A DNA stretch of 64,000 nt from Pseudomonas lini (GTDB taxonomy: Bacteria; Pseudomonadota; Gammaproteobacteria; Pseudomonadales; Pseudomonadaceae): positions 1,426,001-1,490,000 of the forward strand of contig NZ_OZ061318.1 in assembly GCF_964063345.1 (NCBI RefSeq), in the 5' to 3' direction. Shown here piece after piece: positions 3,803 through 54,529 of this stretch. How positions within the stretch are numbered: the first letter of the stretch is position 1; every line of letters starts with the position of its first letter. Position numbers and translations under genes: made by a program. The notes below the pieces were generated by a model. The model saw only the letters and a program-made list of their open reading frames with translations. It did not search any database and was not told the origin of the DNA.

Positions 3803-3827
3803 GCCCTTCCCTCTCCTTTTGACCGAC

Positions 3828-5594: not shown

Positions 5595-5600
5595 CCTGTG

Positions 5601-5633
5601 CCGGTTTAAGGGACGTTCTGCCCCCTAAACCGG
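5601..5633. repeat. Inverted repeat between pilZ gene and aroG
   Basis: CCGGTTTAAGGG pairs with CCCCCTAAACCGG with one bulged A and a short loop. It stands 6 bases after the PilZ stop. There is no T-run on either side, so it is a weak candidate for a terminator; it could stabilise the 3' end or act in the aroG leader. Confidence 0.5.
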
Positions 5634-5756
5634 TGTCTGCCCATTGTCGAGCCACGGTGTAACGCGCTAAGGTTCAGCTCCCCGACGCGCTTAATTTGCT
5701 GTGCTCCGCCGCGCGGGTTCGCTGGCGGCCGGCACCCGTGACCTGACGAGTAAACG

Positions 5757-9749: not shown

Positions 9750-9805
9750 CGGGGGCTCCAAATCGGGGGCGCCACCTTAGCCGAAACACCGCCGCTAGAA
9801 AAGCG

Positions 9806-10411: not shown

Positions 10412-10421
10412 CGGATTCTCC

Positions 10422-11105
10422 ATGGGCGTAAGCATTCTCACCGCGAAGAACCTCAGCAAAGTGGTTCCCAGCGCGGAAGGTGAACTGACTATCCTGCACG
10501 AACTCAGCCTGGAACTGAACAAGGGCGATAGCCTGGCCATCGTCGGCGCCTCCGGTTCCGGCAAATCCACCCTCCTCGGCCTGCTCGCCGGCCTCGACCT
10601 GCCGAGCAGCGGCGAAGTCACCCTCGCCGGGCAAGGCTTGAGCAATCTCGATGAAGACCAACGCGCGCGCATACGTGCCGAGCACGTGGGGTTTGTCTTT
10701 CAATCATTCCAGCTGCTGGACAGTCTCAACGCTTTGGAAAACGTCATGCTGCCGCTGGAACTCGATGGCCGCAAAGACGCCCGTGAGCGCGCCACCGAAC
10801 TGCTGCAGCGGGTCGGCCTGGGCCAGCGCCTGACTCACTCACCGCGCCAGCTTTCCGGTGGCGAGCAGCAGCGCGTGGCGATTGCCCGGGCGTTCGCCGC
10901 CGAGCCCGACGTGCTGTTCGCCGATGAACCCACCGGCAATCTCGATAGCCACACCGGCGAGCGCATCAGCGATCTGCTGTTCGAACTCAACCAGGAAAGC
11001 GGCACGACCCTGGTGCTGGTGACCCACGACGAACGCCTGGCACATCGCTGCCGGCGCCTGATCCGCCTTGAAGCCGGCCTGCTGGTCGCCCCTCTGGAGC
11101 CTTGA
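10422..11105 (+). CDS. ybbA: ABC transporter ATP-binding protein YbbA
   Basis: This 227-residue ATPase has Walker [13 protein letters not shown], signature [15 protein letters not shown] and Walker [13 protein letters not shown]. The last of these is typical of the LolD/MacB branch that partners FtsX-like permeases. Its stop overlaps the start of the permease gene (TGATG), so the two form one unit. It begins about 10 bases from the divergent tesA start. The E. coli YbbA-YbbP pair is thought to extrude something from the inner membrane, but the substrate is not established. Confidence 0.92.
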
Positions 11106-38361: not shown

Positions 38362-40356
38362 TCAGGGTTCGAGGCGGCGTTGCTGGTGGATCCAGTCGAC
38401 GATCTCCCCGTCGGGGGTGTAGCCGCTGACCGTTTCGCGCAGGAGTTGACGGACGCGGGAGTAATCATCCTGTTCGACGGCAAGCAGCAACTCGGTCAAA
38501 CGCCCCTTGAGCACGTCCCAGGGCAAATGGTCTTCGTTGGCGGTCATGATCATCGGATGCGGTGTCGCGGCAACGTTATCGCCGATCAGCAACTCTTCGT
38601 AGAGCTTCTCTCCCGGACGCAGGCCCGTAAACTCGATCGAAATATCGCCCTGGGGATTTCGCTCGGAACGGATGCTCAAGCCGGACAGGTGAATCATCTT
38701 CTCCGCCAGTTCGATGATCTTCACCGGTTCCCCCATATCCAGCACGAATACATCACCGCCCTGCCCCATGGAGCCGGCCTGAATCACCAGTTGCGCGGCT
38801 TCAGGGATAGTCATGAAGTAGCGGGTGATTTTCGGGTGCGTGACCGTCAATGGACCACCGGACTTGATCTGACTGTGGAACAACGGAATCACCGAACCGG
38901 ACGACCCCAACACATTGCCAAAACGCACCATGGTGAAACGGGTTTTGTTGACCCGGGATACATTGGCCTTGTCGCCAAACAGTACCGGGGCAACTTCACG
39001 ACTGAGGGCCTGAAGGGTCAACTCCGCCAGACGCTTGGTGCTGCCCATGATGTTGGTCGGACGAACGGCTTTATCGGTAGAAATCAGCACGAAGTTGGCG
39101 ACACCCGACTGCAATGCAGCCTGAGCAGTGTTCAATGTGCCAATGACATTGTTGAGCACGCCTTCGGCAATGTTGTGCTCGACCATCGGCACATGCTTAT
39201 AAGCAGCCGCGTGATAGACGGTATCCACGCGCCAGGTCTTCATCACATCGAGCAGTTTGTGCGGGTGACGAATGGAGCCCAGGATAGGCAGCAACTTGAC
39301 CGTTACCGACTCACGGCAGGCGCGCTGCTCCAACTCCGACAGAATGCTGTAAAGGTTGAATTCACTGTGTTCGAACAGAATAAGCGTGGTCGGGCCAAGG
39401 GAGAAAATCTGCCGGCACAGCTCCGAACCGATCGACCCGCCAGCGCCAGTGACCATCACTGTCTTGCCTTTGATACAGCGCTCAAGCAAATCGGCCTGGG
39501 CTGGCACGGCATCACGGCCCAGCAAATCAGCGATATCCACTTCCTGGATGTCTTCAACCTTGACCCGGCCGCTGGCCAGATCGGTGAAGTTCGGGACGCT
39601 TCGTACGTGCAAAGGAAAAGCTTCAAGCAGATTCAAAATCTCTCTTCGCCGCGCGCGGGTCGACGACGGAAGCGCCAACAAGATCTCCTGAGCGCCGGTG
39701 ACATCGATCATCTGCTGGATGTGCTTGGGCTTGAATACCTGCAGGCCGGAAATAACCCGATCAGCGATGCCGCTGTCATCATCAATGAAGGCAACCGGTC
39801 TCATCACCCGCCCCATTCGCAATGCGGCGACCAACTGATTGCCTGCAACACCAGCACCGTAGATCGCTACCTTGGTCAGACCATCATCCCGGCTGGCAAA
39901 AGGCACATGCTGAGCGGCCATGAACCAGTCGCCGAGGAAGTATTGACGCATGGCCAGGCGCAAGCCGCCGACCATGACCAGACTTAGCCACCAATAGTTG
40001 AAAATGATCGAGCGCGGAACCACCGTTTCGTGATTGCTATACCAATACACCACAAATGCCAGAATCAGAGCAGAAAGACTGACAGCCTTGATAATGGCAA
40101 TCAGCGCGTCATTGCCAAAATAACGCATGACGGCACGGTACATGCCAAACCGTATGAACAGGGGAATGGCCACCAGCGGAGCGCTGATAAAAAGCCAGGT
40201 GTGCTCACGCAGAGGATTGATCATATCCTCGACACCCAGGCGCACCACAAACGCCATCCAGAGCGCAAAGGTGACCAGAACCACGTCAGCGATCACTTGA
40301 AGCGTGCGCTTCTGGCGTCGTGGCAGTCCGAGCAGTAGCACTCTCAACCTATCCAT
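38362..40356 (-). CDS. wbpM: UDP-GlcNAc 4,6-dehydratase, membrane-bound (WbpM/FlaA1 family)
   Basis: This 664-residue enzyme matches WbpM in length. It has four N-terminal membrane helices (about 20-135) and a non-catalytic Rossmann domain (VAIYGAGVAGNQLVAAL near 165). The catalytic SDR domain carries TGAGGSIGSELCRQI near 302, AAAYKHVPMVE near 385 and PTNIMGSTKR near 435, where Met replaces the usual catalytic Tyr, as in UDP-GlcNAc 4,6-dehydratases. It makes UDP-4-keto-6-deoxy sugars for FucNAc or QuiNAc. The ATG at 40356 follows AGGAGG by 11 bases; an earlier frame start at 40395 is possible. It is the last gene of the O-antigen locus. Confidence 0.92.
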   Translation of the reverse strand: MDRLRVLLLGLPRRQKRTLQVIADVVLVTFALWMAFVVRLGVEDMINPLREHTWLFISAPLVAIPLFIRFGMYRAVMRYFGNDALIAIIKAVSLSALILAFVVYWYSNHETVVPRSIIFNYWWLSLVMVGGLRLAMRQYFLGDWFMAAQHVPFASRDDGLTKVAIYGAGVAGNQLVAALRMGRVMRPVAFIDDDSGIADRVISGLQVFKPKHIQQMIDVTGAQEILLALPSSTRARRREILNLLEAFPLHVRSVPNFTDLASGRVKVEDIQEVDIADLLGRDAVPAQADLLERCIKGKTVMVTGAGGSIGSELCRQIFSLGPTTLILFEHSEFNLYSILSELEQRACRESVTVKLLPILGSIRHPHKLLDVMKTWRVDTVYHAAAYKHVPMVEHNIAEGVLNNVIGTLNTAQAALQSGVANFVLISTDKAVRPTNIMGSTKRLAELTLQALSREVAPVLFGDKANVSRVNKTRFTMVRFGNVLGSSGSVIPLFHSQIKSGGPLTVTHPKITRYFMTIPEAAQLVIQAGSMGQGGDVFVLDMGEPVKIIELAEKMIHLSGLSIRSERNPQGDISIEFTGLRPGEKLYEELLIGDNVAATPHPMIMTANEDHLPWDVLKGRLTELLLAVEQDDYSRVRQLLRETVSGYTPDGEIVDWIHQQRRLEP

Positions 40357-40569
40357 ACTCGTCAACCCCTCCTTTGAATTACTTATCCCGGCCATCTACG
40401 CGAGCAGGGCCTTGTCATGAACTGTTCGAATATCGGCTTCGACAAGTCCGCCCTTAATGCCTGTCGAAGCAGGAATTGACGTAAAGTAACCAAAACGTCA
40501 CAGAAAAACACTCACTTCAGTCAGCCTCTGATCGACTCCTGTCATTCGACAATCGATAAAAAGTAGCAG

Positions 40570-40629: not shown

Positions 40630-43600
40630 TTATCCACCGACTTGACTGTAGCCCTCGCAGGATTTTGCAGCCCGGTCTCTGGCGATGGAATAAGCCTCGT
40701 GCAATAGCTTGTGCCGCTCCAGACGCACATTCGGATCAGCCGGAGTGCGGAACAGGGAAGTGGTTTTCGGTACGTAAGTAAAGGTATTGCCGTAACCGTA
40801 CCGCAGCCACAGATTCCAATCCTCAAGATTGCTCATGTCAGTCTCGAATCCTCCGCGCTGCAAATAGAGATCGCGCTGGAAGAGCAAGGACTGGATCGGG
40901 ATGAAATTGTGATCAAGCAGAATATTGTAGTCATATTCATGCTTGAAGTACGCCGGGGTCTCATGACTGACTTCGGTGTAGCGACCATCCGGCCCTGTCA
41001 CCGTCCCAACTTCCATTGCCAGTGAATAAGCGGCAACCGCCTCGCGATTCTTCGCCAACGCTGCGACGAGCACTTCGACGTGATCGGAAAACAGCAGGTC
41101 GTCATCATCCAGGAACATGCAATAGGTACCCTTGGCCATTTCAAGGCCATAGTTGCCTGTCACGGAGCGCCCGACTTTATCCATGCCGTAGAAACGGATG
41201 GAGCGGTCCGCTTGCTGCTGGAACTCGGCCACCAGATCCTTCATGGTCTGGCCGCCATCTTCCACCACCACCAGCTCCACATTGGGGTATGTCTGATTCA
41301 ATACCGATATGATCGCCTGGCGAAGGAATTCGTTACGGTTACGATAAGTACGGGTAACGATCGTCACCAACGGAGCGTCGCCCAGCGGTTCACCCACCGT
41401 CCAGAACGCCCCATCGCGAATCATCTCGTAATCGAAACCGCGGAAAGGGAAGTAACTGTCCTTGCTTGAGCCTTTGCCCGACAGGAAATGCGGCGCTTTT
41501 CTGATGATCTTGCCGAAATTCGCAATCAAGTCACGGCGTACACCGGCATAAACTTCCGGACGGAACAACAATGCTCCTTGCAGCACCAGTGTCCCGAGCT
41601 TGTCGCTGAGATCGCCGTAGCGCAAACGCAAGTAAGCGTTGGCCAACGTACTGCCAGTAAACTGAATGGGCTTTACATGGTTTTCATGTTCATAGGTGTA
41701 GTGATAAACCACCGCCGAAGGACAGTACTTCAACCGATAACCATAAGAGCGGAACCGGTAGGACAGCTCAACATCCTCGCCATACATGAATATCTCATGC
41801 TCGTACCCGCCGACTTTTACATAAGCCGAACGCCTGATCAGAATGCAAGCATGCGAGGACCAATTAGTTTCCTGGGTGACCGGATCATAGTATTTTGGAT
41901 GTTCATAAGGTGCCTGGCGCAGTTCCCATGAGGCAACGGCTCCCACCATATCCGACAGGGCTGAAGCCACCACTCTCTCTATCGAGTCGCCGGCGAATAC
42001 AATATCGATGTTACTGACCAGGACAAATTCTGCCTGCCCAGTCGTTATCGCCCTGTCATGCCCCAGTCCAAAGCCCACATTCTCGCCCTGGATGATTTCG
42101 AAACCTGCCAATTCAGCGCCGAGCAGTGTTTTCCAGCGCTGCAGATCCTGTACGGTGCTGTCTTTGGAACCGTTATCGACGAAACATACATTCAGTTTTT
42201 GCAGTGGGTAGCTCTGAGCCTTCAGGGACTCGAAGAAGCCATCGACCCACTTGCCGCTGTTGTATGTAACGATCGAGACATCGATCACCGGGTGAGCATC
42301 AAGCACCGGCATGCTCAGCGAATGGCCGAAACGCCGGTCGGCGACGACCTGAACCGCTTTGAGGTTATGTTGCGAGTTGATGGCCCGCATCACCTTGGTG
42401 CGCGCAGCTTTTGCATAGTGACTCAAGCGCATGCGGATGCCGATCAGAAATGGAAGTTTCTGATAAATCGGGCGTAAAGCAGCGCGGGGATTGGCAAGCA
42501 CGCCTTGCAGTTTCCACCAGGCCCACAACAGCAAACGTCGCACCCCCCTGAACGGACGGGTCATGGACCAGGATTTCGAGGAATAGACGTTGTACAGATC
42601 CCCCTTCAAAACCAGTATTTCTGATTTGAGGGCATCGATTTGCTGGTTCAGTCGGTTCTGTGTCTGCAGCAATTCGTCGTTGTCTTGAAGATATCTGTCG
42701 TCCAGCACCGAAGTGAACTTTTCGTCCATGACCGAGAGTTGATCCTTCGTCAAAAGCAGTTCATCCCTAACACTTGTCAGCTCGCTTCGCGCGGCCAGAT
42801 ACGTTTCATTGAGGTTTGACAGCTCACCGCCCATTTCCTGATTCTTTTCTTCGAGCCAAGTAATATAGGACTGCTGACGATAGCTTTCCAGGTCAGGATC
42901 AAACGTGTTTCTCGCCGGATCGACCGTGATTGTCCGTGCAAGACGGGAAAGATGCGCGGAAGGCTCATTGAATTGCGCCGCCCCCAGAAAATAGCGCGAC
43001 TGTGCAAAATCCAGGATTTGCGCCCGCAGCTCTCTGGAACATGGCGCCACCGCCCTGTGTTCCTGCCACAGCGCCGCAAGATCCGCCGGTTGACCGACAT
43101 CAATGGTCAGGCCTGTGCCCGAGTATGGTGCCTTGCCCAGGGCATACACAGTCTTGCCCGCCAGAGCGGCTTCGAACCCGGCCGAAGAGTTGATCGTAAA
43201 CACCACATCGGCACTGGCAATCAGATCCGCGATGCTCTCTTCCTTATCAGCCACCAGAACATGTTCAGGGAGCGCCGGCACTTCATCGAGAGGGTGTGGT
43301 TTGACCACCACCTTATAGTCGGAGCCCTCCACCACGCCGACCACATGCTGTACATACTCGGCCATGCTGAAAAATGGAGAACCCATAATGATGTTGGAAT
43401 CGTCCTGAACCTGAAGCAGGATCAGTATCGTAGGGACACGACTGGTGCCTCGGAAACGATAACTTTCTTCCATCTGTTGCAGACGCACCAGAGCGGCTTC
43501 GATCGGCAACTCTGATTGCTGCTCTCGATAATCGGTAAACTCGGCACTGAAGCCACTGCGTACGTTAACGCCACGACTGTCTGAGTAGTAACCCATCGGA

Positions 43601-44493
43601 TTCGGTGTACGCAACATCCCAAGCTCGTTGAACAGCAAAGGAATGCCTTTGGCTGCGCAAACGGTTTCGAGACTGCCGTCATAATTCCAGCAGAACACCA
43701 GTTCCGGATCGACATTGTTGATCAGGGACTCGACGAATCGGTCGTGAAACCCTAGAGGCTCTTTATTAAGGAGACACTTCCAGTCGTTCAACCAGTCCGA
43801 GGTCTGGGCGTCTGGATAGTCGCAGTTATAGGAGGCCGGGCTGATCCACGTGTGGCCGAAGTCAGGGTATTCGCTCTTCAACTCATTGGAGCCGACAAAA
43901 ATACATTCCCAACCATCATCGGCAAACCGTTTCGCCAGCGGTAGATACACGTCAACAATGCTGCTGAACAGCGTCGGACGCTCTCTCAATACTAACGGTA
44001 GCGTGTAAAAAACCACGCGCTTGAACTTCCTCGGCGCTACTTTTACTGCCGGATCACCCGCCGCGATGCTATTGGGGGGGACGTTGAATTTAACCACCGA
44101 GTTCGCCGCAATGATCGCACCCTGTCCGATCACCGCCCCCGCCAGCACCGAAGCATTGGCGCCGATCCAGACGTCATCACCGATTTCCACCTCTGCCAGC
44201 CTCAGCCCTTGATCCTTGATTGGCGAGTGCAAGTCATAGCGATGAGTCGATGACGTAATGGAAACGTTGGGCGCGATCAAAACATCTTTACCAATGATGA
44301 CCTTGCCGCTGCCGTTCACCCATGTGCCGTAATTGATGACCGTACCAGATGAAATGCTCAAGTAGCCACCGGCACCGCATTCGATGACGACGTTATCCCG
44401 GATTTGAACGCCATCCTCGATGATGCAAACAGCCGTTTCGTCTACATGAAACTTGACCGTTTCTGCAATATCCGCATTACCAATTTTAAGCAT
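40630..44493 (-). CDS. Multidomain O-antigen polymerase/terminator: acyltransferase + GT-B + coiled coil + GT2 + GT2 (WbbB-like)
   Basis: The protein has 1287 residues. Residues 1-160 form a left-handed β-helix acyltransferase (IIGKDVLIAPNVSITSSTHR with probable catalytic His; VEIGDDVWIGANASVLAGAV). Residues ~160-525 resemble capsule Kdo-transferase modules of the KpsS/KpsC/WbbB type (VVKPHPLDE; TINSSAGFEAALAGK, then YSGTGLT). Residues ~545-640 are a coiled coil closing with SKSWSMTRPFRGVRR. The first GT2 domain (~738-960) has VSIVTYNSG, FVDNGS and the divalent-metal region LVSNIDI. The second (~1040-1250) has VTIVTRTYRN, VVEDGG and MFLDDDD. The ATG at 44493 lies 4 bases after the wzt stop. 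It is probably the chain polymerase and capping enzyme of the O antigen. Sugar specificity is not readable. Confidence 0.85.
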   Translation of the reverse strand: MLKIGNADIAETVKFHVDETAVCIIEDGVQIRDNVVIECGAGGYLSISSGTVINYGTWVNGSGKVIIGKDVLIAPNVSITSSTHRYDLHSPIKDQGLRLAEVEIGDDVWIGANASVLAGAVIGQGAIIAANSVVKFNVPPNSIAAGDPAVKVAPRKFKRVVFYTLPLVLRERPTLFSSIVDVYLPLAKRFADDGWECIFVGSNELKSEYPDFGHTWISPASYNCDYPDAQTSDWLNDWKCLLNKEPLGFHDRFVESLINNVDPELVFCWNYDGSLETVCAAKGIPLLFNELGMLRTPNPMGYYSDSRGVNVRSGFSAEFTDYREQQSELPIEAALVRLQQMEESYRFRGTSRVPTILILLQVQDDSNIIMGSPFFSMAEYVQHVVGVVEGSDYKVVVKPHPLDEVPALPEHVLVADKEESIADLIASADVVFTINSSAGFEAALAGKTVYALGKAPYSGTGLTIDVGQPADLAALWQEHRAVAPCSRELRAQILDFAQSRYFLGAAQFNEPSAHLSRLARTITVDPARNTFDPDLESYRQQSYITWLEEKNQEMGGELSNLNETYLAARSELTSVRDELLLTKDQLSVMDEKFTSVLDDRYLQDNDELLQTQNRLNQQIDALKSEILVLKGDLYNVYSSKSWSMTRPFRGVRRLLLWAWWKLQGVLANPRAALRPIYQKLPFLIGIRMRLSHYAKAARTKVMRAINSQHNLKAVQVVADRRFGHSLSMPVLDAHPVIDVSIVTYNSGKWVDGFFESLKAQSYPLQKLNVCFVDNGSKDSTVQDLQRWKTLLGAELAGFEIIQGENVGFGLGHDRAITTGQAEFVLVSNIDIVFAGDSIERVVASALSDMVGAVASWELRQAPYEHPKYYDPVTQETNWSSHACILIRRSAYVKVGGYEHEIFMYGEDVELSYRFRSYGYRLKYCPSAVVYHYTYEHENHVKPIQFTGSTLANAYLRLRYGDLSDKLGTLVLQGALLFRPEVYAGVRRDLIANFGKIIRKAPHFLSGKGSSKDSYFPFRGFDYEMIRDGAFWTVGEPLGDAPLVTIVTRTYRNRNEFLRQAIISVLNQTYPNVELVVVEDGGQTMKDLVAEFQQQADRSIRFYGMDKVGRSVTGNYGLEMAKGTYCMFLDDDDLLFSDHVEVLVAALAKNREAVAAYSLAMEVGTVTGPDGRYTEVSHETPAYFKHEYDYNILLDHNFIPIQSLLFQRDLYLQRGGFETDMSNLEDWNLWLRYGYGNTFTYVPKTTSLFRTPADPNVRLERHKLLHEAYSIARDRAAKSCEGYSQVGG

Positions 44494-44497
44494 GATA

Positions 44498-45757
44498 TTA
44501 AGCAACCTTCACAACGTTCACTGTTGACGGGCAGTAAGCAACCCCAACGATCTGACGCCCGCCAGACACACTCAACTTCCTCATCGGCCAGCGTTGATCC
44601 AGTTCAACTCGCTCCCCATCCAGACTGGCCATGCCGATGAACAGGAAGTACTCCCCGGGCGCCACATTGAGCGGGAAGGAAAAGCTGATTTTGTAGGCAC
44701 CTTTCTCGAAATCGAACTTGCAGCCGGCCAGCAAGGTGTTGTCGCCCGCCACATCGACGCCTTTGGCATCGCGCAACGAATAGCCGATGACCACTTCGCG
44801 CAACTCAGCATAAGACTGGACGTAGCAATGCATCGTGACGTCTTCTGTCGGTTCGAAGTGATTGGTCAACGAGCCGTCTGCACTGTAAAAATCAACAGCG
44901 TTGATCTTCGCTGCGCCGGAACCGAATCGAACTTCCGAAATATCGCCCAACTCGGAGTCATAGGAAACATCGGCGTGCTGCTCTTCAACCACCGGCACCG
45001 CCACCGAACTGCTGTTACGCACCTTTTTTTCGTAGTTCTTGGTGGCGGTCAGCACGTCGGTGCTGTAATCGATAATCTGGCCGTTCTGCATCACGATGAC
45101 AGCCTGGCAGAAGCGAATAACTGATTGGGTATCGTGAGAAACGAAAAGGATTGTGGTACCACGCTCCTGCATATGCTTCATCTTGAGCATGCACTTGAGC
45201 TGAAAGCCCGCATCTCCGACGCTTAACGCCTCGTCGACGATCAGTACGTCAGGTTCAACGTTAATCGCCACGGAAAATGCCAGCCGCGCAAACATCCCGC
45301 TGCTGTACATGCGTACGGGTTGATTGACGAAGTCGCCGATGTCGGCAAATTCCAGAATGGCCCCAATACGGGTTTGCATCTCGGCATGTGAGTACCCCAT
45401 CAGGGATCCCTGGAAATAAATGTTTTCCACGCCTGTGTAATCCGGATTGAACCCAGCACCCAACTCAAGCAGCGATGCCACCCGGCCAACAACCCTGACC
45501 TCGCCGCTCGAGGGTGTCAGCACCCCTGTAAGGATTTTCAACAAGGTGCTTTTACCTGCACCGTTCTTGCCCAGGATCCCGACGGTCTGGCCTTTCTCGA
45601 CCGAAAAAGAAACATCGGTCAGCGCATGAAAATCATGATGTCTATGCTTGCCGAAAAGCGAAAGAGCCTCGACCAGTCGGTCTACGGGCTTGTTATAAAG
45701 CCGGTAGACCTTACTGACGTTATGGACGCTGATTGCGCTCTCATTCACTGCATTCAT
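44498..45757 (-). CDS. wzt: O-antigen ABC exporter ATPase Wzt with carbohydrate-binding domain
   Basis: This 419-residue protein has an ATPase domain (about 1-250): Walker A GILGKNGAGKSTLLK, signature MYSSGMFARLAFSVA, Walker B DVLIVDEALSVGD. A C-terminal β-sandwich follows (about 265-419; VRFGSGAAKINAVDFYSADG), the type that in E. coli O9a and Klebsiella O12 binds the capped chain end. The extension means export likely depends on a terminal modification. Its start overlaps the wzm stop, and its stop is 4 bases before the WbbB-like gene. Confidence 0.93.
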   Translation of the reverse strand: MNAVNESAISVHNVSKVYRLYNKPVDRLVEALSLFGKHRHHDFHALTDVSFSVEKGQTVGILGKNGAGKSTLLKILTGVLTPSSGEVRVVGRVASLLELGAGFNPDYTGVENIYFQGSLMGYSHAEMQTRIGAILEFADIGDFVNQPVRMYSSGMFARLAFSVAINVEPDVLIVDEALSVGDAGFQLKCMLKMKHMQERGTTILFVSHDTQSVIRFCQAVIVMQNGQIIDYSTDVLTATKNYEKKVRNSSSVAVPVVEEQHADVSYDSELGDISEVRFGSGAAKINAVDFYSADGSLTNHFEPTEDVTMHCYVQSYAELREVVIGYSLRDAKGVDVAGDNTLLAGCKFDFEKGAYKISFSFPLNVAPGEYFLFIGMASLDGERVELDQRWPMRKLSVSGGRQIVGVAYCPSTVNVVKVA

Positions 45758-46545
45758 TACAAAACATCCGCAAAGTGAGGTCTTAATTTTTTGAATGTAC
45801 GCCAGCCCACCAGCGTCAAGACAATCAATACCCCCCAGAAAAACAGGGTCTGAGTTGGTCGTTCCCAGAACCAGATCCCGCGAATAAGCGAATCCCTGAA
45901 TCCTTCGACAATGTAAGCAAAAGGATTCAGGCGCAGATAAGACGCTGCCCGCCCCTGAATCGCATCGATATCCCAGAACACCGGGGTCAGCCAGAAACCG
46001 AACTGCGTGGCCATCGCCACTAACTGACTCAAGTCAGGGAAGAAAATCACCACCGAACTGGTAATCCAGGCGATCGCCAACAACAGCATGAACAGACAGG
46101 CAATGTAATAGCCGACTTGCAACCAGTAAAGGTTCGGCGAATAGCCGTAGATAACGAACAGCAACAACAGTATAAATACGAAGAAGATGTGCACGAGTAC
46201 CGCGGAGCTGAGTTTAACCAACGGCAACAATGAAACCTTGAAGACAATCTTCTTTACCAGAAAACTGTTTTCCTTGACCGCCGTGCAGCCGGAGTTCAAT
46301 GCTTCAACTGTGAAAAACCACGGTACAAGTCCGCATACCAGCCATAGAACAAAAGGAAAGTCTCCGTGAGGGGCCGCCTTGAAGCCGAACTGAAACACGA
46401 ACCAGAGGATCAGTGTCGTAGCGCATGGCTGAATGAAGACCCACAAAAAACCAAGGTAATTGGTCAGATATCGTGCACGAAGGTCATTTGAAATCAGGCT
46501 CAACAGAATCCTGCGATCCGACAGCATCCCCCTGAGCCAGCTCAT
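45757..46545 (-). CDS. wzm: O-antigen ABC exporter permease Wzm
   Basis: This 262-residue ABC-2-type permease has about six membrane helices. Motifs include RYLTNYLGFLWVFIQPCATT near the N-terminus, LVCGLVPWFFTVEALNSG and LRLNPFAYIVEGFRDSLIRG. It forms the channel that flips undecaprenyl-linked polysaccharide to the periplasm with Wzt. AAGGAG lies 8 bases upstream of the ATG at 46545. The gene is more A/T rich than its housekeeping neighbours, as is common for O-antigen genes. Confidence 0.92.
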   Translation of the reverse strand: MSWLRGMLSDRRILLSLISNDLRARYLTNYLGFLWVFIQPCATTLILWFVFQFGFKAAPHGDFPFVLWLVCGLVPWFFTVEALNSGCTAVKENSFLVKKIVFKVSLLPLVKLSSAVLVHIFFVFILLLLFVIYGYSPNLYWLQVGYYIACLFMLLLAIAWITSSVVIFFPDLSQLVAMATQFGFWLTPVFWDIDAIQGRAASYLRLNPFAYIVEGFRDSLIRGIWFWERPTQTLFFWGVLIVLTLVGWRTFKKLRPHFADVL

Positions 46546-46615
46546 CGAAAATCTCCTTGCTTTGCAAACACACTTTCCACTGCTTTTAACCCACCGCACA
46601 ACATCATAAATTCCA

Positions 46616-47713
46616 TTAACTATCCGTGCTCATCGACTTGAGTTTTTCGCTGACAAGGGATGTGGATACAGGCTTGGGTTCGTCACTGCCCGCCAGGACT
46701 CTGGACTTGTCCTTGGGCTTGAACTTCAACACGCGTTTTTCCACCAGGTGCCACGAGGCATAGCCCAGCATCAAGGTAATGACGATGGTGACAAACAGAT
46801 ACATCGGGTAAGAAATATTCGGGAACTTGAGCAATACGAACTGCTGTACCGGGAAAGCGTAAATGTAAACGCCGTAGGAGCAGTCACCCACACGGTTGAC
46901 CCAACTGCCCAACCAGCTTCGAGATAGACCGTAGGCCAGAACGACATAAGGCAACGCAAGCCAGAGTAAAAACTTGGAAACCGCGGCATACGGTGCCAGC
47001 AGAATGGTTGCCATGATCAGTACGCAGACACCCGACAGACTGAACCAACGCTCCAGCCGCCACTTTGCATAACAGGCACCGATCATGAAATAGATGCCTG
47101 TCAGGAAAATATTCCTGACATCGGTTCCGTAAACCACCACTAGAGGTGCATTACGCCAGCACCAGAAAACCACGGTGAGCGCGAACAGTGCGGTGACCGC
47201 CGTGTACACCCAGCGCCCGCCCTTGAACAGCAGCCCCAGCCCCATCACCACCAGATACATGAAAAACTCGACAGGCAGACTCCACAACGAACCGTTGACT
47301 GCGTTGGGAACCCTTGCATGCTCAAGAACACCGGGCAGATAGAACACCGGGCTCAAGATGATATTTCTCATATAAGACCAGAATTGCGGATGCGCAAAAT
47401 ACTCACTGACTGTCAACGTGGTGAAAATCGGCCCCAGCACAAACATGCTGATCAGGACGACCACAATCAGCGCCGGAAAAATCCGCAACGAACGCTTGAT
47501 CAGAAAGTTGGCCGCCGACGGGGTAAAATCCCAGCTTTTGACGATCAAATAACCGCTAATAATAAAGAATATTTCGATGCCCAAGCCGCCATAGGAGGCC
47601 AGACCAAGAAATCCGGCAGGGGCATTGCCATAGAACGCAAAGGAGTGTGCATAAAGAACCATCAGCGCAGCAATAAGCCGAAGCAAGTTTAAATTATTAT
47701 CCTTATGCTGCAT
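46616..47713 (-). CDS. Membrane acyltransferase, acyltransferase-3 family (OafA-like)
   Basis: This 365-residue protein has about ten hydrophobic helices. The N-terminus NNLNLLRLIAALMVLYAHSF holds the family His, and a middle motif NGSLWSLPVEFFMYLVVMGL is typical. Members O-acetylate sugars at the membrane. There is no C-terminal SGNH domain. It probably acetylates the O antigen in the periplasm or at the lipid-linked stage. It is a second, unrelated acyltransferase in this locus next to the one fused in the large protein. Confidence 0.88.
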   Translation of the reverse strand: MQHKDNNLNLLRLIAALMVLYAHSFAFYGNAPAGFLGLASYGGLGIEIFFIISGYLIVKSWDFTPSAANFLIKRSLRIFPALIVVVLISMFVLGPIFTTLTVSEYFAHPQFWSYMRNIILSPVFYLPGVLEHARVPNAVNGSLWSLPVEFFMYLVVMGLGLLFKGGRWVYTAVTALFALTVVFWCWRNAPLVVVYGTDVRNIFLTGIYFMIGACYAKWRLERWFSLSGVCVLIMATILLAPYAAVSKFLLWLALPYVVLAYGLSRSWLGSWVNRVGDCSYGVYIYAFPVQQFVLLKFPNISYPMYLFVTIVITLMLGYASWHLVEKRVLKFKPKDKSRVLAGSDEPKPVSTSLVSEKLKSMSTDS

Positions 47714-47930: not shown

Positions 47931-48956
47931 TCAGGCGGGGGGTTGACTCTCCCGGGTGCCTCCCTTGAACCTCGCGGCCAACCAGAGCAAAGGAGCGTAG
48001 GCCATTATCAGACCGATAACGCCAGGAACAAATCCTAGTGCTACCGCAATGGCCCAGGGCAGTAACCAGAACACGTTGAGCCCGACAACCGCCATCGTCA
48101 CAGCCTTGTGACTGCGATACTGACGAGAGGCGTACTGATAGGCGTGACTGCGATGCGCCTGATAAACCTTGTCACCATTCAACAGACGCCGGCAAAGCGT
48201 CCACGTTGCGTCGACCACAAAGGTTCCGAGCAGGATCACCCAACTCCACAAAAACACGGATGACACGGCCCCGGCGGAGAGCGACAAGATCCCCAGAGCA
48301 ATACCCAAAAAGCCACTTCCGGCATCGCCCATGAAAATACGTGCGGGCGGAAAGTTCCAGCACAGGAAACCCGCCACGGCCCCGGCTAGAACCAGCGCCA
48401 CCCAAAGCAGCTCAAGCTGCCCGGTGACCAGGTAAATAAGACCACTACCCAGACAAACACACATTGCCTCGGCACTCGCCAAGCCATCAATGCCATCCAT
48501 GAAGTTGTACAGGTTGAGCATCCAGACCAAGTAAATCACAGCAAACACATTGCCCAGCCACCCAAGGTCGATGATGGCGCCGAAGAACGTGACAGGTGCC
48601 AGCCCGTCAAGCCAGTACAACGCCCAAGCCGCCGCAACGAAATGCCCGAACAGGCGCCATTTGGCAGCGATATGACCGTGATCGTCGGCAAACCCTATAA
48701 TCGAGACCAACAACCCGCTTCCAAGCAAGGCATACAGTGTATCGATGCCTATAAGGCCGAAAGCACAGAGCACAGGCAACGCAACCAGGAAGCCGAAAAC
48801 GATCGCCACCCCACCACCCCGGGGCGTGGGCACGGTGTGGGAACTGCGCTCGTTGGGAATGTCCATCAAGCTCTTGGATAATGCGTAGCGTCGCAGTCCC
48901 CCGGTCAAGGCCCAGGAGAGCACGAAAACTGTGATAAGCAACCCGCCAAAAATCAT
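47931..48956 (-). CDS. Initiating sugar-1-phosphate transferase (WbpL/WecA family)
   Basis: This 341-residue polytopic enzyme belongs to the polyprenyl-phosphate HexNAc-1-P transferases. Motifs are RSSHTVPTPRGGGVAIVFGF, a DDHGH cytoplasmic aspartate pair, NFMDGIDGLASAEA, FMGDAGSGFLGIAL and the basic AHRSHAYQY loop. It starts O-antigen assembly by moving a HexNAc-type sugar phosphate (probably QuiNAc or FucNAc given wbpM and the epimerase) to undecaprenyl phosphate. Its ATG overlaps the epimerase stop (ATGA). Confidence 0.9.
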   Translation of the reverse strand: MIFGGLLITVFVLSWALTGGLRRYALSKSLMDIPNERSSHTVPTPRGGGVAIVFGFLVALPVLCAFGLIGIDTLYALLGSGLLVSIIGFADDHGHIAAKWRLFGHFVAAAWALYWLDGLAPVTFFGAIIDLGWLGNVFAVIYLVWMLNLYNFMDGIDGLASAEAMCVCLGSGLIYLVTGQLELLWVALVLAGAVAGFLCWNFPPARIFMGDAGSGFLGIALGILSLSAGAVSSVFLWSWVILLGTFVVDATWTLCRRLLNGDKVYQAHRSHAYQYASRQYRSHKAVTMAVVGLNVFWLLPWAIAVALGFVPGVIGLIMAYAPLLWLAARFKGGTRESQPPA

Positions 48957-49912
48957 TTCGTATGCGTATCCATAAAATGGTCTGCGGTGCGCCGCATGGC
49001 AGTGTCCACATCGATCGATGGAACCCAGCCGAGCAACTCGCGGTTTTTGCTGATATCAACCTGCAACGACTCACACACCCGCTGGGCCATGGCGCGTTTG
49101 CCGATGACAGCAGCGCCCAACGTCAGCAACACGGACGGCACAGGCAGCAACCAGGCTTTTTTTCCTAGCGCCGAGGCCAGACGACACAGCAACCGGGGAG
49201 TCGACAGGTCGTCACCGTCGCTGACCAGAAAAATTTGCCAGGCCGCTCCCGGATGATCGAGACAAGTTTCGATCAGGTCGACCAGATTGCCGATCGAGAC
49301 CATGCTGCGCTGGTTCCGAATTCCGCCCAGGGGCAAGATCAGACCTCTGTCGAGCCACTCGAGCAGGCTTAGAAAGTTGGCCTTGACCCCCGGGCCGTAC
49401 ACCAGCGGCGGACGAATGATCACGATCTCCATTCCAGTCTCGCGCCCCAGCGACATTAACGCCTGTTCCGCCTCGTGCTTGGATACCCCGTAAGGATCCA
49501 GTGGAGCAGCTACGGCGGCGGCGGTAAACGGCCGTCCCGGGGCAGTGCGCTCACCGTTGACCTTGATCGAACTGATATAAACAAAGCGCTTGACCCCTGC
49601 CCGAGCGGCCAATCGAGCCAACTGCAACGTACCGTCCACATTGACCCTGCGAAACTCGGCCAGTGCATCCTGCGCCGTTTCGTGCATGACATGCACCCGC
49701 GCCGCCGCATGCACAATCACTTGCACACCTGTCATTTGCGCAGCAGTGGCCGCTCCCAGCTGAAAATGCACCACTGGGCACAGCCCCTGCAGACGTGTCG
49801 AACCTCGTACTGCCGCTACGGGCATGAATCGCCGTCCAAGCAGCAACCGAAACACGACAGCCTCGCCAACGAATCCACTCGCCCCAGTCACCAATACCTT
49901 CGGCGCGGTCAT
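48953..49912 (-). CDS. NAD-dependent epimerase/reductase (WbpV/WbpK type)
   Basis: This 319-residue SDR of the extended type has VTGASGFVGEAVVFRLLLGR, HAAARVHVMHE, YISSIKVNGE with the active-site Ser, YGVSK as catalytic YxxxK, and PPLVYGPGVKANF. In pseudomonads this group reduces UDP-4-keto-6-deoxy-HexNAc, the product of WbpM, to UDP-QuiNAc or UDP-FucNAc. The true start is the ATG at 49912, which overlaps the GT2 stop (ATGA). Which epimer results cannot be read. Confidence 0.85.
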   Translation of the reverse strand: MTAPKVLVTGASGFVGEAVVFRLLLGRRFMPVAAVRGSTRLQGLCPVVHFQLGAATAAQMTGVQVIVHAAARVHVMHETAQDALAEFRRVNVDGTLQLARLAARAGVKRFVYISSIKVNGERTAPGRPFTAAAVAAPLDPYGVSKHEAEQALMSLGRETGMEIVIIRPPLVYGPGVKANFLSLLEWLDRGLILPLGGIRNQRSMVSIGNLVDLIETCLDHPGAAWQIFLVSDGDDLSTPRLLCRLASALGKKAWLLPVPSVLLTLGAAVIGKRAMAQRVCESLQVDISKNRELLGWVPSIDVDTAMRRTADHFMDTHTK

Positions 49913-50832
49913 TGAGCGGACTTCCCTATTAGCGCGGTCGCCCAACAAATCAGAAAAAACAAAACACGATCCCTGATCCGCCGCCGGCAACGCCAGGCGG
50001 AGAACGATAGCCGAATCAATTGCCACCGTCGCAGTTGAAGCCAAGAGCCGACAAAGGGGTCGGCATCCTGCCCGACCAATCGCGCGATCAAGCCGACCTG
50101 ATTGAACCACCAGCCGTCATGAATGGTTGTATAACGCGCAATCATCGAGCCCAGGCCAGTATTCGCCCCCACCTGATTACGGTCATGCTGGCGATAATCC
50201 ATGGATGGCACCGGATCGATGTACCAACGATATCCATGGCTGCGAGCAAAGGCGTAGCAGTACCAATCGTGCAGACTGACGCTTTGCAGCGCATCCCAGT
50301 GAACCAGCATCGACTGCTTCATGGCCTCCACCATGGGAGCTCTCAGAACATAGGTGCAGCCAGGACCGGCCGCCTCAAACAGAAAATCCCAGCTGGTTTG
50401 CGGTTGCGCCTTGTTCAGCAGCCGAGTTCTACCATCCTCCCAGAACGCGGTAACGTTGCTGGAATAAGCATCAACCTTGCGTGATTGCAGAGACTCTATA
50501 GCCCGCTTTAGCTTATCGCCATGCCAGAGATCATCCTGGTCGGCAAACGCAACGAAATCGTAGGACTCGATATCAACATCACGGATCAGTCTGAAAAAAT
50601 TGCGCGAGGCACCACCGAAGCGGCCGCCCGGTGGCAGGACAATGATGTTTGGATGCGTGGCGGCAAAGGCTGCACACCAGGCTTCGGTACCGTCAGTGGA
50701 GGGGTCGATGCTGATGTGAACGGTGACGTCCACGGCAGACTGACCAAGGATCGAGGTCAATTGCTCCTCGATCCATTGCATACCGTTGTAGGCAGCCAGT
50801 AAAACTGCAACCTTGGGGGATTTTACTGGCAT
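49909..50832 (-). CDS. Glycosyltransferase family 2 (rhamnosyltransferase-like)
   Basis: The protein has 307 residues with a GT-A fold: VAVLLAAYNGMQWIEEQLTS, VHISIDPSTDGTE and FADQDDLWHGDKL with the metal-binding DQDD. The layout is that of O-antigen rhamnosyltransferases (RfbF/WbbL-like), which fits the nearby rml genes. It probably adds one sugar to the lipid-linked primer before polymerisation. It begins 53 bases after rmlA and overlaps the epimerase gene. Confidence 0.85.
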   Translation of the reverse strand: MPVKSPKVAVLLAAYNGMQWIEEQLTSILGQSAVDVTVHISIDPSTDGTEAWCAAFAATHPNIIVLPPGGRFGGASRNFFRLIRDVDIESYDFVAFADQDDLWHGDKLKRAIESLQSRKVDAYSSNVTAFWEDGRTRLLNKAQPQTSWDFLFEAAGPGCTYVLRAPMVEAMKQSMLVHWDALQSVSLHDWYCYAFARSHGYRWYIDPVPSMDYRQHDRNQVGANTGLGSMIARYTTIHDGWWFNQVGLIARLVGQDADPFVGSWLQLRRWQLIRLSFSAWRCRRRIRDRVLFFLICWATALIGKSAQ

Positions 50833-50885: not shown

Positions 50886-51776
50886 TTAGCGGGAAGGGGA
50901 ATCCAACAGCTTCTGCAAGTACTGGCCATAACCAGTCTTCTTCAGGGCATCAGCCTGGGTACTCAACTGCTCGGCAGTAATCCAGCCATTGTGATACGCA
51001 ATCTCTTCAAGGCACGCCACTTTCAAGCCTTGACGCTGTTCAATGGTGTGCACGAAGTGACTGGCTTCCAGTAGCGAATCATGGGTACCGGTATCCAGCC
51101 AGGCGAAGCCACGGCCGAGCATTTCGACGTTGAGGGTCTTCTGCTCGAGGTACGCACGGTTAATGTCAGTGATTTCCAGCTCGCCACGTGCGGATGGCTT
51201 GATGTTTTTGGCGATTTCTACGACCTGGTTGTCGTAGAAGTACAGACCAGTCACCGCGTAGCTGGATTTCGGCTTCAGCGGCTTCTCTTCGATGCTCAAC
51301 GCGCGGCCGGCAGCGTCGAATTCGACTACACCAAAACGCTCGGGGTCGGATACGTGATAACCAAATACAGTCGCGCCGTGCTCTTGAGTGGTGGCGGAAC
51401 GCAGATTGTCCGAGAAGTGCTGACCGTAGAAGATGTTGTCGCCCAGGATCAGACAGCAAGGATCCTTGCCGATGAATTCTTCGCCAATGATGAAGGCTTG
51501 TGCCAGGCCGTCCGGGCTAGGTTGCTCGGCATAAGTCAGCTTGATGCCGTACAGGCTGCCGTCACCCAGTAACTTTTGAAAACTTGGCAAGTCTTCAGGG
51601 GTAGAGATAACCAGGATTTCGCGCATGCCGGCGAGCATCAGCACGGACAGCGGATAGAAGATCATCGGCTTGTCGTAGATCGGCAGCATCTGCTTGGACA
51701 CGCCGAGGGTCAACGGATGCAGACGAGTGCCCGAGCCGCCAGCGAGGATGATGCCTTTACGATTTGTCGTGGTCAT
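50886..51776 (-). CDS. rmlA: Glucose-1-phosphate thymidylyltransferase RmlA
   Basis: This 296-residue enzyme starts [18 protein letters not shown] (nucleotide-binding GGSGTRL) and contains [23 protein letters not shown] and [13 protein letters not shown]. It makes dTDP-glucose, the first step to dTDP-L-rhamnose, and is usually feedback-inhibited by the end product. Its ATG overlaps the rmlD stop (ATGA). Confidence 0.95.
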
Positions 51777-52666
51777 TTGTTCAGAACTTCCGTCAGCATT
51801 CGGGTGACACCACTTTGCCAATCCGGCAAGTGTAGAGAAAAGTTGTCGCGCAACTTCTGAGTGTTCAACCGTGAGTTCAGAGGACGACGCGCCGGTGTTG
51901 GGTAGGCGGTTGTGTCTATCGGATTGATCGACGTGACCGCGAGTTCTTCACCGTTGGCCTTGGCAAAACCGATCACATGGCTGGCATAGCCGTGCCAGGA
52001 CACTTCGCCGGCGGCCGCCAGGTGATACAGGCCTGCCAGTTCAGGACTTTGCATGACTTGCTGAATGGCCAATGCCGTCACATCAGCGATCAGATCTGCA
52101 CCCGTTGGGGCGCCGATCTGGTCGGCGATGACACTCAAGGTTTCGCGGTCCTTGGCCAGACGCAGCATGGTCTTGGCAAAGTTGTTGCCGCGCGCGCCAT
52201 AGACCCAACTGGTGCGGAAGATCAGGTGCTTGCAGCCTGAGGCAGTAATCGCTTGCTCGCCGGCCAGTTTGCTCGCGCCGTAATGATTCACCGGGGCGAC
52301 GGCATCTGTCTCTTGCCATGGCTTCAGGCCTTCACCGCTGAACACGTAATCGGTCGAGTAGTGAATCAGCCAAGCGCCCAGGGACGCAGCTTCTTCAGCC
52401 ATGACCTGACTCGCCTGACCGTTCACACGGTCGGCCAGCTCGGTCTCGGACTCTGCCTTATCGACGGCGGTGTAGGCCGCGGCGTTAACGATGACGTCGG
52501 GCTTGACCTGACGGATCGTCGCGCGCAGTGCATCGAGGTCAGACAGGTCGCCGCTCAAACCATCGACCGGGTGACGGTCCAGGGCGATCAATTCACCCAG
52601 CGGCGCAAGGGAGCGTTGCAGCTCCCAGCCTACCTGGCCATTTTTTCCCAACAGGAGAATTTTCAT
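51773..52666 (-). CDS. rmlD: dTDP-4-dehydrorhamnose reductase RmlD
   Basis: This 297-residue enzyme has [19 protein letters not shown] (NAD(P)H binding), [15 protein letters not shown], the catalytic Thr/Tyr/Lys set in [12 protein letters not shown] and [11 protein letters not shown], and [14 protein letters not shown]. It reduces dTDP-4-keto-L-rhamnose to dTDP-L-rhamnose. Its substrate requires RmlC, not found in this window. It overlaps rmlB by 4 bases (ATGA). Confidence 0.95.
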
Positions 52667-53739
52667 GCGTTATCCGAACGATCCGTGTAGTTCTGGTCAA
52701 TCCATTGCTGATAGCTGCCGCTCTTCACGTGAGCAACCCATTCAGTGTTGTTGAGGTACCACTCGACGGTTTTGCGGATGCCGGTTTCAAAAGTTTCTTC
52801 CGGGGTCCAACCCAGCTCGCGCTGAATTTTGCTGGCATCGATTGCGTAGCGCTGGTCGTGGCCCGGGCGATCCTGAACGTAGGTGATCAAGCTGGCATGT
52901 GGGCGATGAGCGGAATCTGGTCGCAGTTCATCGAGCAATGCGCACAGGGTATGCACCACTTCGATGTTTTGCTTCTCGTTATGGCCGCCGATGTTGTAGG
53001 TCTCGCCGATCACGCCTTCGGTCACGACTTTGTACAGTGCGCGGGCGTGGTCTTCGACGTAGAGCCAGTCACGGACCTGATTGCCTTTGCCGTAAACAGG
53101 CAGCGGCTTGCCTTCCAGTGCGTTGAGGATGATCAGCGGGATCAACTTCTCAGGGAAATGGCACGGACCGTAGTTGTTCGAGCAGTTGGTGACCAGGGTC
53201 GGCAGGCCGTAAGTACGAGCCCAGGCGCGAACCAGGTGATCGGAACTGGCCTTGCTGGCCGAGTACGGCGAGCTTGGCTGATACGGCGTGGTTTCGGTAA
53301 AGAGGTCTTCCGGACCTTCGAGGTCTCCGTAGACTTCGTCGGTGGAAATATGGTGGAAGCGGAAGTTGGCTTTACGCGCATCATCCAGTGCCGCCCAATA
53401 ATGGCGTGCAGCTTCCAGCAAGGTGTACGTGCCGATGATGTTGGTCTGGATGAATTCAGACGGACCGGAGATCGAGCGATCAACGTGGGACTCTGCGGCC
53501 AGGTGCATGATGGCATCCGGTTGGTGTTCACGCAGGATACGGTCCACTTGGTCACGATCACAGATGTCGACGCGTTCGAACACATAACGTGAGTTCTGGC
53601 TGACTTCGGCCAACGATTCAAGATTACCGGCATAAGTCAGTTTATCGACGTTAACGACAGAGTCGTTAGTGTTGGAGATGATATGACGAATGACTGCCGA
53701 GCCGATAAAACCGGCGCCGCCGGTAACTAGAATTTTCAC
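52663..53739 (-). CDS. rmlB: dTDP-glucose 4,6-dehydratase RmlB
   Basis: This 358-residue enzyme has [53 protein letters not shown] and [18 protein letters not shown], all hallmarks of RmlB. It converts dTDP-glucose to dTDP-4-keto-6-deoxyglucose. It starts with GTG, with AAGGG about 10 bases upstream. It is the first gene of the O-antigen run; the 226-base gap upstream holds its promoter, but no JUMPstart/ops element was found. Confidence 0.95.
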
Positions 53740-53965
53740 GCGAAACCATACCCTTTAGTTGCTGACAGGGCCGCCAACCGCGCACTGCCTAATCCATGAA
53801 TGCCAAAGCCATCAAGTTCGCCGAGGCTTCTGACAGCGTCAGTCTGAACCGATTCGGGAATGCCCTATCGATCAAGCGCAGCATTTTACAGCTTAATGAA
53901 GGTTTTACTAATGGATATGGACAAGCTGCGACACAAACTCGATACATACAACGGGCTTGTCGCAG

Positions 53966-54205
53966 TCAGACAAGGCGCTTGCGTGAAGATCTGGACGTAC
54001 GTCCCAGAAACCAGCCAAGAATCGGCCCGATCACCATGCCAACCAACAGCGCAATCACCATGATCAGCGATACTGGCAACTGTGGACCCGACCAGCCCAG
54101 GAATAGCAGTGCAACACCTTGCTGGTTCTCAAGAACGAACGCCAGGATCGCCAGAACGAGCAATAGGACAAATACAGCGAGAAGTACGCGCTTGAGGTTA
54201 TGCAT
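53966..54205 (-). CDS. lapA: LapA-domain inner membrane protein
   Basis: This 79-residue protein has two hydrophobic helices (LLAVFVLLLVLAILAFVL and SLIMVIALLVGMVIGPILGW) joined by ENQQGVALLFLGW and ending in a basic tail. It matches the LapA domain (lipopolysaccharide assembly protein A); in E. coli LapA accompanies LapB in LpxC turnover. No lapB is adjacent. It starts 27 bases after ihfB and is likely co-transcribed. P. aeruginosa has the same neighbour order. Confidence 0.85.
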   Translation of the reverse strand: MHNLKRVLLAVFVLLLVLAILAFVLENQQGVALLFLGWSGPQLPVSLIMVIALLVGMVIGPILGWFLGRTSRSSRKRLV

Positions 54206-54232
54206 CAGCGGTTCCTTGAAGTGCAGCAGCTG

Positions 54233-54529
54233 TCAAAGCCCTTCCTCCTCATCCTCGTTCACGCGATCGCGCAGTTCTTTGCCTGGCTTGAAATGCGGAA
54301 CGAACTTGCCGTCGAGGCTGACGGACTGACCGGTTTTCGGATTACGGCCTACGCGCGGTGCGCGATAGTGCAGGGAGAAGCTGCCAAACCCACGGATCTC
54401 GATTCGATCACCGGTGGCCAGACATTGGGACATTTGCTCAAGCATGGTCTTGATGGCCAGCTCCACATCCTTGGATGAGAGCAGCCCTTGATGGGTGACA
54501 ATTCGTTCGATCAACTCCGACTTCGTCAT
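54233..54529 (-). CDS. ihfB: Integration host factor β subunit
   Basis: This 98-residue protein starts [20 protein letters not shown] and contains [20 protein letters not shown] and [10 protein letters not shown]. The RNP loop inserts Pro into the minor groove and bends DNA by about 160 degrees. It pairs with IhfA encoded elsewhere. It is placed between rpsA and the O-antigen locus, as is usual in Pseudomonas (himD). Confidence 0.96.

Follow-up and report, generated by a model that had tools for sequence, protein, structure and literature searches.

A putative self-contained O-antigen assembly protein in Pseudomonas lini joins a hexapeptide acyltransferase to a WbbB-like terminator and a dual GT2 polymerase

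Introduction

The three modules of WbbB, the single-chain O-antigen enzyme of Raoultella terrigena and Klebsiella O12, founded the glycosyltransferase (GT) families GT99, GT102 and GT103 (PMC11231755). WbbB, KpsC and KrkA have been shown to transfer 3-deoxy-d-manno-oct-2-ulosonic acid (Kdo) with retention, through a double-displacement mechanism (PMC12887879), and recognition of a cap by a Wzt-type domain has been reported for Escherichia coli O9a and R. terrigena (PMC9445017; PMC11231755). In a survey, the O-polysaccharide gene set was left unidentified in most of the plant-associated Pseudomonas analyzed, and many known O-polysaccharides contained l-rhamnose (PMC6804347). We describe a 1287-residue protein (P0001) encoded in a 64,000-nucleotide stretch of the Pseudomonas lini genome (NCBI RefSeq assembly GCF_964063345.1, contig NZ_OZ061318.1, positions 1,426,001 to 1,490,000; hereafter the window). 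We consider it likely, on the basis of sequence comparison and structure models, that this single protein carries out O-antigen assembly by itself within an ATP-binding cassette (ABC) transporter pathway, building the polysaccharide, gauging it, capping it with Kdo and probably acetylating the cap; the length measurement and the cap chemistry are what we infer. An initial annotation of the window had likened the protein to WbbB; the strand, the active-site test, the ranking of fold matches, the covariation with the exporter, the exchange of modules in both directions and a role for the acyltransferase are added here.

Results

Domain organization

The + strand of 40630–44493 contains in-frame stops, and the − strand holds a single open frame of 1287 codons starting with ATG at 44493, 4 nucleotides after the wzt stop codon; an in-frame TTG upstream of this ATG would add four residues. 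The initial annotation gave no strand, and the single protein, the domains and the domain order that it listed were borne out by Pfam, PDB sequence matches and AlphaFold:

40630..44493, − strand: single-chain protein P0001, 1287 amino acids (open frame, Pfam, homologues)
44029..44493, − strand: residues 1–155, hexapeptide (left-handed β-helix type) O-acyltransferase domain (Pfam, PDB sequence match)
42919..44019, − strand: residues 159–525, predicted GT99-like (WbbB-type) β-Kdo transferase module (alignment, fold match, homologues)
42583..42897, − strand: residues 533–637, predicted long helix, candidate coiled-coil ruler (AlphaFold)
42289..42579, − strand: residues 639–735, SKSWSMT motif and basic, aromatic linker, candidate membrane-binding segment (sequence, motif)
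41389..42288, − strand: residues 736–1035, first GT2 polymerase module (Pfam, AlphaFold, Foldseek)
40630..41382, − strand: residues 1038–1287 plus stop, second GT2 polymerase module (Pfam, AlphaFold, Foldseek)

A terminator thus precedes two polymerizing GTs in one chain beside wzm-wzt, which is the WbbB-type arrangement. Thirty further homologues (87–100% coverage, 49–88% identity) keep the domain order, three of them lacking the acyltransferase and one (P0015) retaining only part of it, so that the fusion is neither a chance event nor private to this genome.

Terminator module

Residues 159–524 found the WbbB GT99 module as their best fold match, well above KpsC and all other matches listed (fold-alignment rows spanning mainly residues 155–538), and show that module's modified GT-B fold. 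Identity to WbbB is about 20%. Eight active-site positions were compared, seven placed by sequence alignment and WbbB R12 (R170 in the chain) from where the structural alignment begins. The nucleophilic Asp of the QxxxD motif, the general base Glu, the His of the HP motif and the Arg, Asn and Ser contacts are all present (R170, E290, R295, N310, Q361, D365, S366 and H400) and identical in 36 of 36 homologues; the underlying alignments took 26 of the 36, with residues then recounted across the full set. The first AlphaFold model had a mean predicted local distance difference test (pLDDT) score of 81, with GT-B blocks at 84–96 except for 76 at residues 321–330. Pfam placed Capsule_synth (PF05159) at residues 339–481 (1.7e-16).

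The structure comparison proposed in the initial annotation therefore turned out as predicted, and residues 160–525 possess the catalytic residues whose absence would have spoken against a KpsS/KpsC/WbbB relationship. The profile search proposed alongside it was positive for PF05159 and fell short for the GT99 N-terminal model: Glyco_transf_99 (PF21912) matched residues 238–310 at 22.0 bits, or 25.3 bits in a second scan, against a curated cut-off of 27, although a PF21912 match is precomputed for three homologues of 79–80% identity. This shortfall weighs against the GT99 assignment, as does a model confidence of only 58 over residues 291–300, the stretch holding R295. Taken together, the alignments and models support the WbbB relationship of the chain and lead us to predict that module 159–525 is a GT99-like β-Kdo transferase carrying out retaining β-Kdo transfer from cytidine monophosphate (CMP)-β-Kdo. 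Linker synthesis of the KpsC type (GT107) was rejected in view of the weaker fold match and the lack of kps-like genes among the annotated neighbours.

Sugar donor

Kdo synthesis is general in Gram-negative bacteria. Elsewhere in its genome P. lini also encodes PseG and PseI of pseudaminic acid (Pse) synthesis, and the donor could therefore be a different ulosonic acid; moreover, a NeuB-family synthase was found in six of the eight distinct genomes with the module (11 entries, three pairs of which share identical contigs and coordinates) and not in the other two, for which genome completeness is not stated. Both observations count against Kdo and, together with the existence of GT118, a KpsC-related Pse transferase (PMC12887879), would fit the same machine with a GT-B module that transfers another CMP-ulosonic acid, such as Pse, and hence a cap other than Kdo. 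GT118, however, lacks the WbbB-type Glu and likely finds its base in a YE motif (PMC12887879), whereas the equivalent Glu290 is present in 36 of 36 homologues, outside the definition of GT118. The eight Kdo-contact positions are kept, the fold points to WbbB and the Wzt domain probably to O12 (see below), and no ulosonic acid genes occur among the annotated cluster genes. The two genomes without a NeuB-family synthase and the presence of E290, whose equivalent GT118 lacks, favour Kdo, and we regard a non-Kdo cap as very unlikely.

Exporter and cap recognition

The position directly after wzm-wzt given in the initial annotation was confirmed by Pfam, with both genes immediately upstream:

44498..45757, − strand: wzt, ABC ATPase; its C-terminal carbohydrate-binding domain, Wzt_C, falls within 44498–44962 (Pfam)
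45757..46599, − strand: wzm, ABC-2 permease (Pfam)

The C-terminal carbohydrate-binding domain of Wzt matched PF14524 (Wzt_C) at 4e-21. Among PDB entries, 5hno/5hnp matched it best (E 1.3e-17), followed by 8dky and 6o14 (4e-14 and 5e-14), which we take to be the Aquifex domain, and at a great distance by 2r5o (0.059), presumably the O9a domain.

Similarity of this domain follows the GT99 module. We compared 18 clusters picked by hand from the loci with a polymerase or GT99 gene plus a recognized Wzt; L021, L022, L026, L030, L031, L038–L046, L048, L052, L053, L055, L065 and L076, among others with a Wzt, were left out. The domain was 48–92% identical in all seven GT99 clusters, compared with 21–35% over shorter stretches in all 11 clusters that have a related polymerase without GT99 and whose ABC half was 44–67% identical. 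Two rows are decisive: Cupriavidus gilardii (L033) has the same cap module, an unrelated polymerase and a Wzt domain 48% identical, and Pseudomonas marincola (L024), of the same genus and with a polymerase 53% identical, has a methyltransferase front end and a Wzt domain of 26%. A search over 83 loci, duplicates included (L001 and L080 are the own genome; L081–L083 repeat the genomes of L004, L002 and L014), agreed with this covariation. By sequence comparison, the exporter thus seems to recognize the same sort of cap, which points to the WbbB/O12 type provided that 5hno is the O12 domain.

Several points tell against this. The assignment of 5hno/5hnp to Klebsiella/Raoultella O12 is provisional: the PDB match names only an ABC transporter protein, and the literature searched cites the O12 study without giving the entry code. 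For L011, L020 and L025, the compared Wzt is encoded somewhere other than immediately upstream of the polymerase gene and may not be its partner. Finally, wzt immediately precedes the cap module both in the window and in all seven GT99 clusters compared, and some of the covariation could stem from this physical linkage. Taken to its limit, the Wzt domain would track GT99 only through joint exchange of neighbouring genes, without reading the cap; this we find distinctly improbable, as cap recognition is reported for E. coli O9a (PMC9445017) and R. terrigena (PMC11231755) and as L020 and L047 combine an ABC half 64–67% identical with a binding domain of only 21–23%.

Acyltransferase domain

The initial annotation had listed the acyltransferase without a role; its presence was borne out. 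Pfam placed Hexapep at residues 102–134 (7e-12), and PDB sequence matches identified a galactoside/maltose-acetyltransferase-like domain of the WbbJ/LacA-like family, with hexapeptide repeats and an active-site His; the fold was judged by sequence only, model confidence lying under 50 at residues 84–86, 92–94 and 135–155. H84, which we take to be catalytic, falls at the alignment position of the galactoside/maltose O-acetyltransferase His, and His occupies this position in 33 of the 33 homologues with a residue there. Across 32 proteins (P0015 and the three proteins lacking the domain omitted), pairwise identities of the acyltransferase track those of GT99 (r 0.94, 0 of 2000 permutations), the acyltransferase being the more conserved in 476 of 496 pairs.

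The domain also stays with GT99 when the polymerase is replaced. Five proteins (P0033–P0037, two of them named, Cupriavidus and Hydrogenophaga) share the acyltransferase (38–56%) and GT99 (38–46%) with the Pseudomonas-type proteins, while their C-terminal halves are unrelated (16–22%) and consist of Glyco_trans_1-type plus GT2 domains; the acyltransferase is retained in five of five. Mainly for this reason we infer a substrate at the cap or tip. Acetylation of repeat units of the growing chain is the obvious alternative, since the WbbJ/LacA-like family acetylates many sugars and O-acetylated repeats are common, but the domain adjoins the terminator, follows it through polymerase replacement and shares the cluster with a separate membrane acyltransferase; we judge this alternative unlikely, though it deserves to be kept in mind. 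A third role, with the domain mainly trimerizing the terminator end and acetyl transfer secondary or lost, is suggested by the trimeric KrkA module (PMC12887879) and appears quite unlikely given the invariant His, the stronger conservation relative to GT99 and a clade that manages without the domain. That clade, the three proteins lacking the acyltransferase, forms one group (100/100) nested among acyltransferase-bearing proteins in a midpoint-rooted tree of 26 rows, for which meeting long branches were flagged between the other-polymerase rows and the rest; given the nesting, a single loss is the simplest history. One cluster of this clade (L014) retains the same type of Wzt domain, 62% identical to that of the window, and acetylation therefore seems, from these comparisons, optional for export. 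Upstream of the GT99 protein in L014, an AlgX-like and MBOAT acyltransferase pair (3367–6029) perhaps offers another acetylation route. Elsewhere, P0044 (523 amino acids) fuses acetylation to chain synthesis in a different way, with a hexapeptide acyltransferase at the C terminus of a GT2 protein.

Polymerase half and its alternative front ends

GT2-type Pfam matches were best at residues 737–934 and 1051–1161 (PF00535 2e-32, two stretches); the polymerase modules of WbbB, in contrast, founded GT102 and GT103. Foldseek returned the tandem GT2 chondroitin polymerase K4CP as best matches, and its list also holds SpsA bound to deoxythymidine diphosphate (dTDP) and RmlT bound to TDP-rhamnose. The second AlphaFold model was weaker (72, predicted template modelling score 0.42), so that relative module positions in it are meaningless. 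Given the cluster's rmlBDA genes, our best guess for the product is an l-rhamnan.

The same dual-GT2 polymerase occurs behind other front ends: PIG-L deacetylase domains (L015 9305–13273 and L018 4490–8428, both with an additional GT2, and L050 9260–12340); methyltransferases (L021 9371–12034, L024 8600–12136 and L032 4832–7711 above the Pfam cut-off, L019 just below); Acyl_transf_3 (L025, helical spacer not apparent); and sulfotransferase-like domains, all under the cut-off of 27 (L017 3237–6209, 26.5; L027 3383–6496, 25.5; L036, 16.9 bits). Judged from their position, these front ends may add chain caps not previously recognized. A stand-alone polymerase of 640–735 amino acids is present in eight Pseudomonas loci (L007–L013 and L035, around 9700–12000); in L007 it directly follows the wbpL-like gene, and no cap module, wzm, wzt or membrane acyltransferase lies between the two. 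Near the cluster, three loci encode a second giant protein of 1626–1773 amino acids (L007 12634–17619, L005 16962–22283 and L011 15025–19905) that in each case has Sulfotransfer_2, WbsX, GT2 and GT1-type domains and is preceded in L005 and L011 by its own wzm-wzt.

The GT99 module is rare. It was found in four of 298 Pseudomonas genomes, the own included and one of the four without the acyltransferase, and in one of 369 genomes of a class sample, namely the own; the polymerase was found in 10 of the 298, again including the own. A front-end search of the class sample (E 1e-15) reached 38 other genomes of the 369, all within residues 9–179, as hexapeptide acyltransferases, and PF21912 matched only the own genome of the 369, a search that weaker GT99 relatives would escape. 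Among 7998 shorter-protein candidates a free-standing whole front end was not found; the three matches were a 417-residue protein (97% identical to the query, of which it covers 48%), a 601-residue GT99-like protein lacking the acyltransferase, and a fusion of an acyltransferase with GT2. On the evidence of these alignments, different chain-building enzymes appear to share the acyltransferase–GT99 sealing part as an exchangeable module.

Stalk and linker

AlphaFold predicted helices at residues 533–599 and 605–637, 105 residues end to end with a break at 600–604, at moderate confidence. The coiled coil of about 95 residues in the initial annotation thus has a long predicted helix in its favour, but heptad periodicity fell short of significance, with equally high scores in 33 of 300 shuffles, and for this reason a coiled coil is plausible rather than demonstrated. 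The aligned stalk segment measures 51–119 residues in same-polymerase proteins and 72–210 in the five other-polymerase proteins; lengths of 63, 75, 105 and 119 residues are represented among natural strains. By analogy with WbdD and WbbB (PMC11231755), a chain-length ruler would be the natural reading; the shuffle result and a stalk of only 51–55 residues in five homologues, short for a ruler, count against it. The linker that follows is basic and aromatic and opens with SKSWSMT.

Gene cluster

The cluster runs in the order rmlB, rmlD, rmlA, GT2, short-chain dehydrogenase/reductase (SDR), WbpL-like, Acyl_transf_3, wzm, wzt and, last, the single-chain gene, followed by the WbpM-like dehydratase:

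52663..53739, − strand: rmlB (annotation)
51773..52666, − strand: rmlD (annotation)
50886..51821, − strand: rmlA (annotation)
49909..50832, − strand: GT2, candidate adaptor glycosyltransferase (family match)
48953..50110, − strand: NAD-dependent epimerase/reductase (SDR), true start probably internal to the open reading frame (family match)
47931..48956, − strand: WbpL/WecA-type initiating sugar-phosphate transferase (family match)
46616..47713, − strand: membrane acyltransferase (Acyl_transf_3), perhaps acetylating the chain (Pfam)
38362..40395, − strand: nucleotide-sugar 4,6-dehydratase (Polysacc_synt_2), which we take to be WbpM-like (Pfam)

Upstream lie rpsA, aroA, hisC, pheA-type and serC genes. 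The measured cluster genes have a G+C content of 49–60%, compared with 61–63% in two flanking blocks; rpsA itself has 53%. No rmlC was found among the annotated cluster genes, and three matches to its family lie elsewhere in the genome. The cluster is also carried by a relative, P. frederiksbergensis 36C6. Between rmlB and rpsA, the + strand carries a 177-residue open reading frame (53796–54329) without a Pfam or NCBIfam match.

Discussion

The following assembly route is proposed from the families and comparisons above. The WbpL-like enzyme, supplied with sugars by the WbpM-like/SDR pair, would start a lipid-linked primer, to which the separate GT2 would add an adaptor. The two C-terminal GT2 modules would then alternately add l-rhamnose, in keeping with the dTDP-l-rhamnose genes rmlBDA in the cluster, while the helical stalk, as in WbdD and WbbB, would keep the N-terminal modules off the polymerase so that only sufficiently long chains reach them. 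There the GT99-like module would seal the tip with Kdo, and the hexapeptide domain, adjacent to the terminator and remote from the polymerase, would O-acetylate the Kdo cap or the terminal sugar; as a trimer, its usual form, it would bring three terminators together at the distal end of the stalk. The carbohydrate-binding domain of Wzt, with the comparative support given above, would finally recognize the cap and admit the finished chain for export.

We also put forward, tentatively and with somewhat more doubt than confidence, a broader view: that Kdo added to the tip is O-acetylated by the fused hexapeptide trimer; that the acyltransferase–GT99 unit and its matching Wzt domain form an exchangeable ‘cap cartridge’ set on at least two unrelated polymerases, the same polymerase in turn taking methyl, probably sulfate, deacetylase and acyl front ends; and that tips and chains evolve as independent plug-in parts. 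A literature search recognized no hexapeptide–GT99 fusion, acetylated-Kdo cap or Kdo-capped Pseudomonas O-antigen in the sections available, which is weak evidence of absence, and the available text of PMC10715155, on another Pseudomonas O-antigen cluster, had no match for Kdo, wzt or acetyltransferase.

The 36 homologous proteins, those named being mostly from Pseudomonas, are a natural set for testing retaining Kdo transfer, and their variants (stalks of 51–210 residues, presence or absence of the acyltransferase, two polymerase types) offer natural experiments on the measuring and sealing of a polysaccharide and on how the exporter reads the seal. Lying at the wbpL–wbpM locus with rml genes, the cluster is a concrete O-polysaccharide candidate for the strains that carry it.

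Among known systems, the E. coli K4 chondroitin polymerase likewise has two tandem GT2 modules but lacks the terminator, stalk and acyltransferase and uses other sugars. KpsC (GT107) and KrkA (GT140) share the modified GT-B fold and the QxxxD and HP motifs, KrkA also being a multi-module chain. E. coli capsule loci encode 29 GT99/GT107-like domains by predicted fold, one set in chains of >1,100 residues with a ribofuranosyltransferase (PMC13171606); these differ in serving capsule repeat synthesis, and the available sections of that source do not mention an acyltransferase fusion. WbdD and WbdA of E. coli O8/O9a follow the same polymerase–terminator logic, with a coiled-coil ruler and a cap-reading Wzt (PMC11231755), but the polymerase is separate and the cap is methyl or methylphosphate. 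ORF6 of Klebsiella O7 joins a terminator, a coiled coil and two C-terminal GT2 domains in one chain (PMC11231755), in its case a methyltransferase-kinase, the coiled coil and two rhamnosyltransferases; it differs in making a methyl-phosphate cap instead of Kdo and in having a third GT on a separate protein. WbbB of R. terrigena and Klebsiella O12 is likewise a single chain with its GT99 β-Kdo terminator before two C-terminal polymerizing GTs, has the same terminator fold and active-site residues and belongs to a system of ABC export with a cap-reading Wzt domain. From WbbB the P. lini protein is set apart by its identity of about 20%, by a GT2 polymerase in place of GT102/GT103 and by the hexapeptide acyltransferase placed before the GT99-like module.

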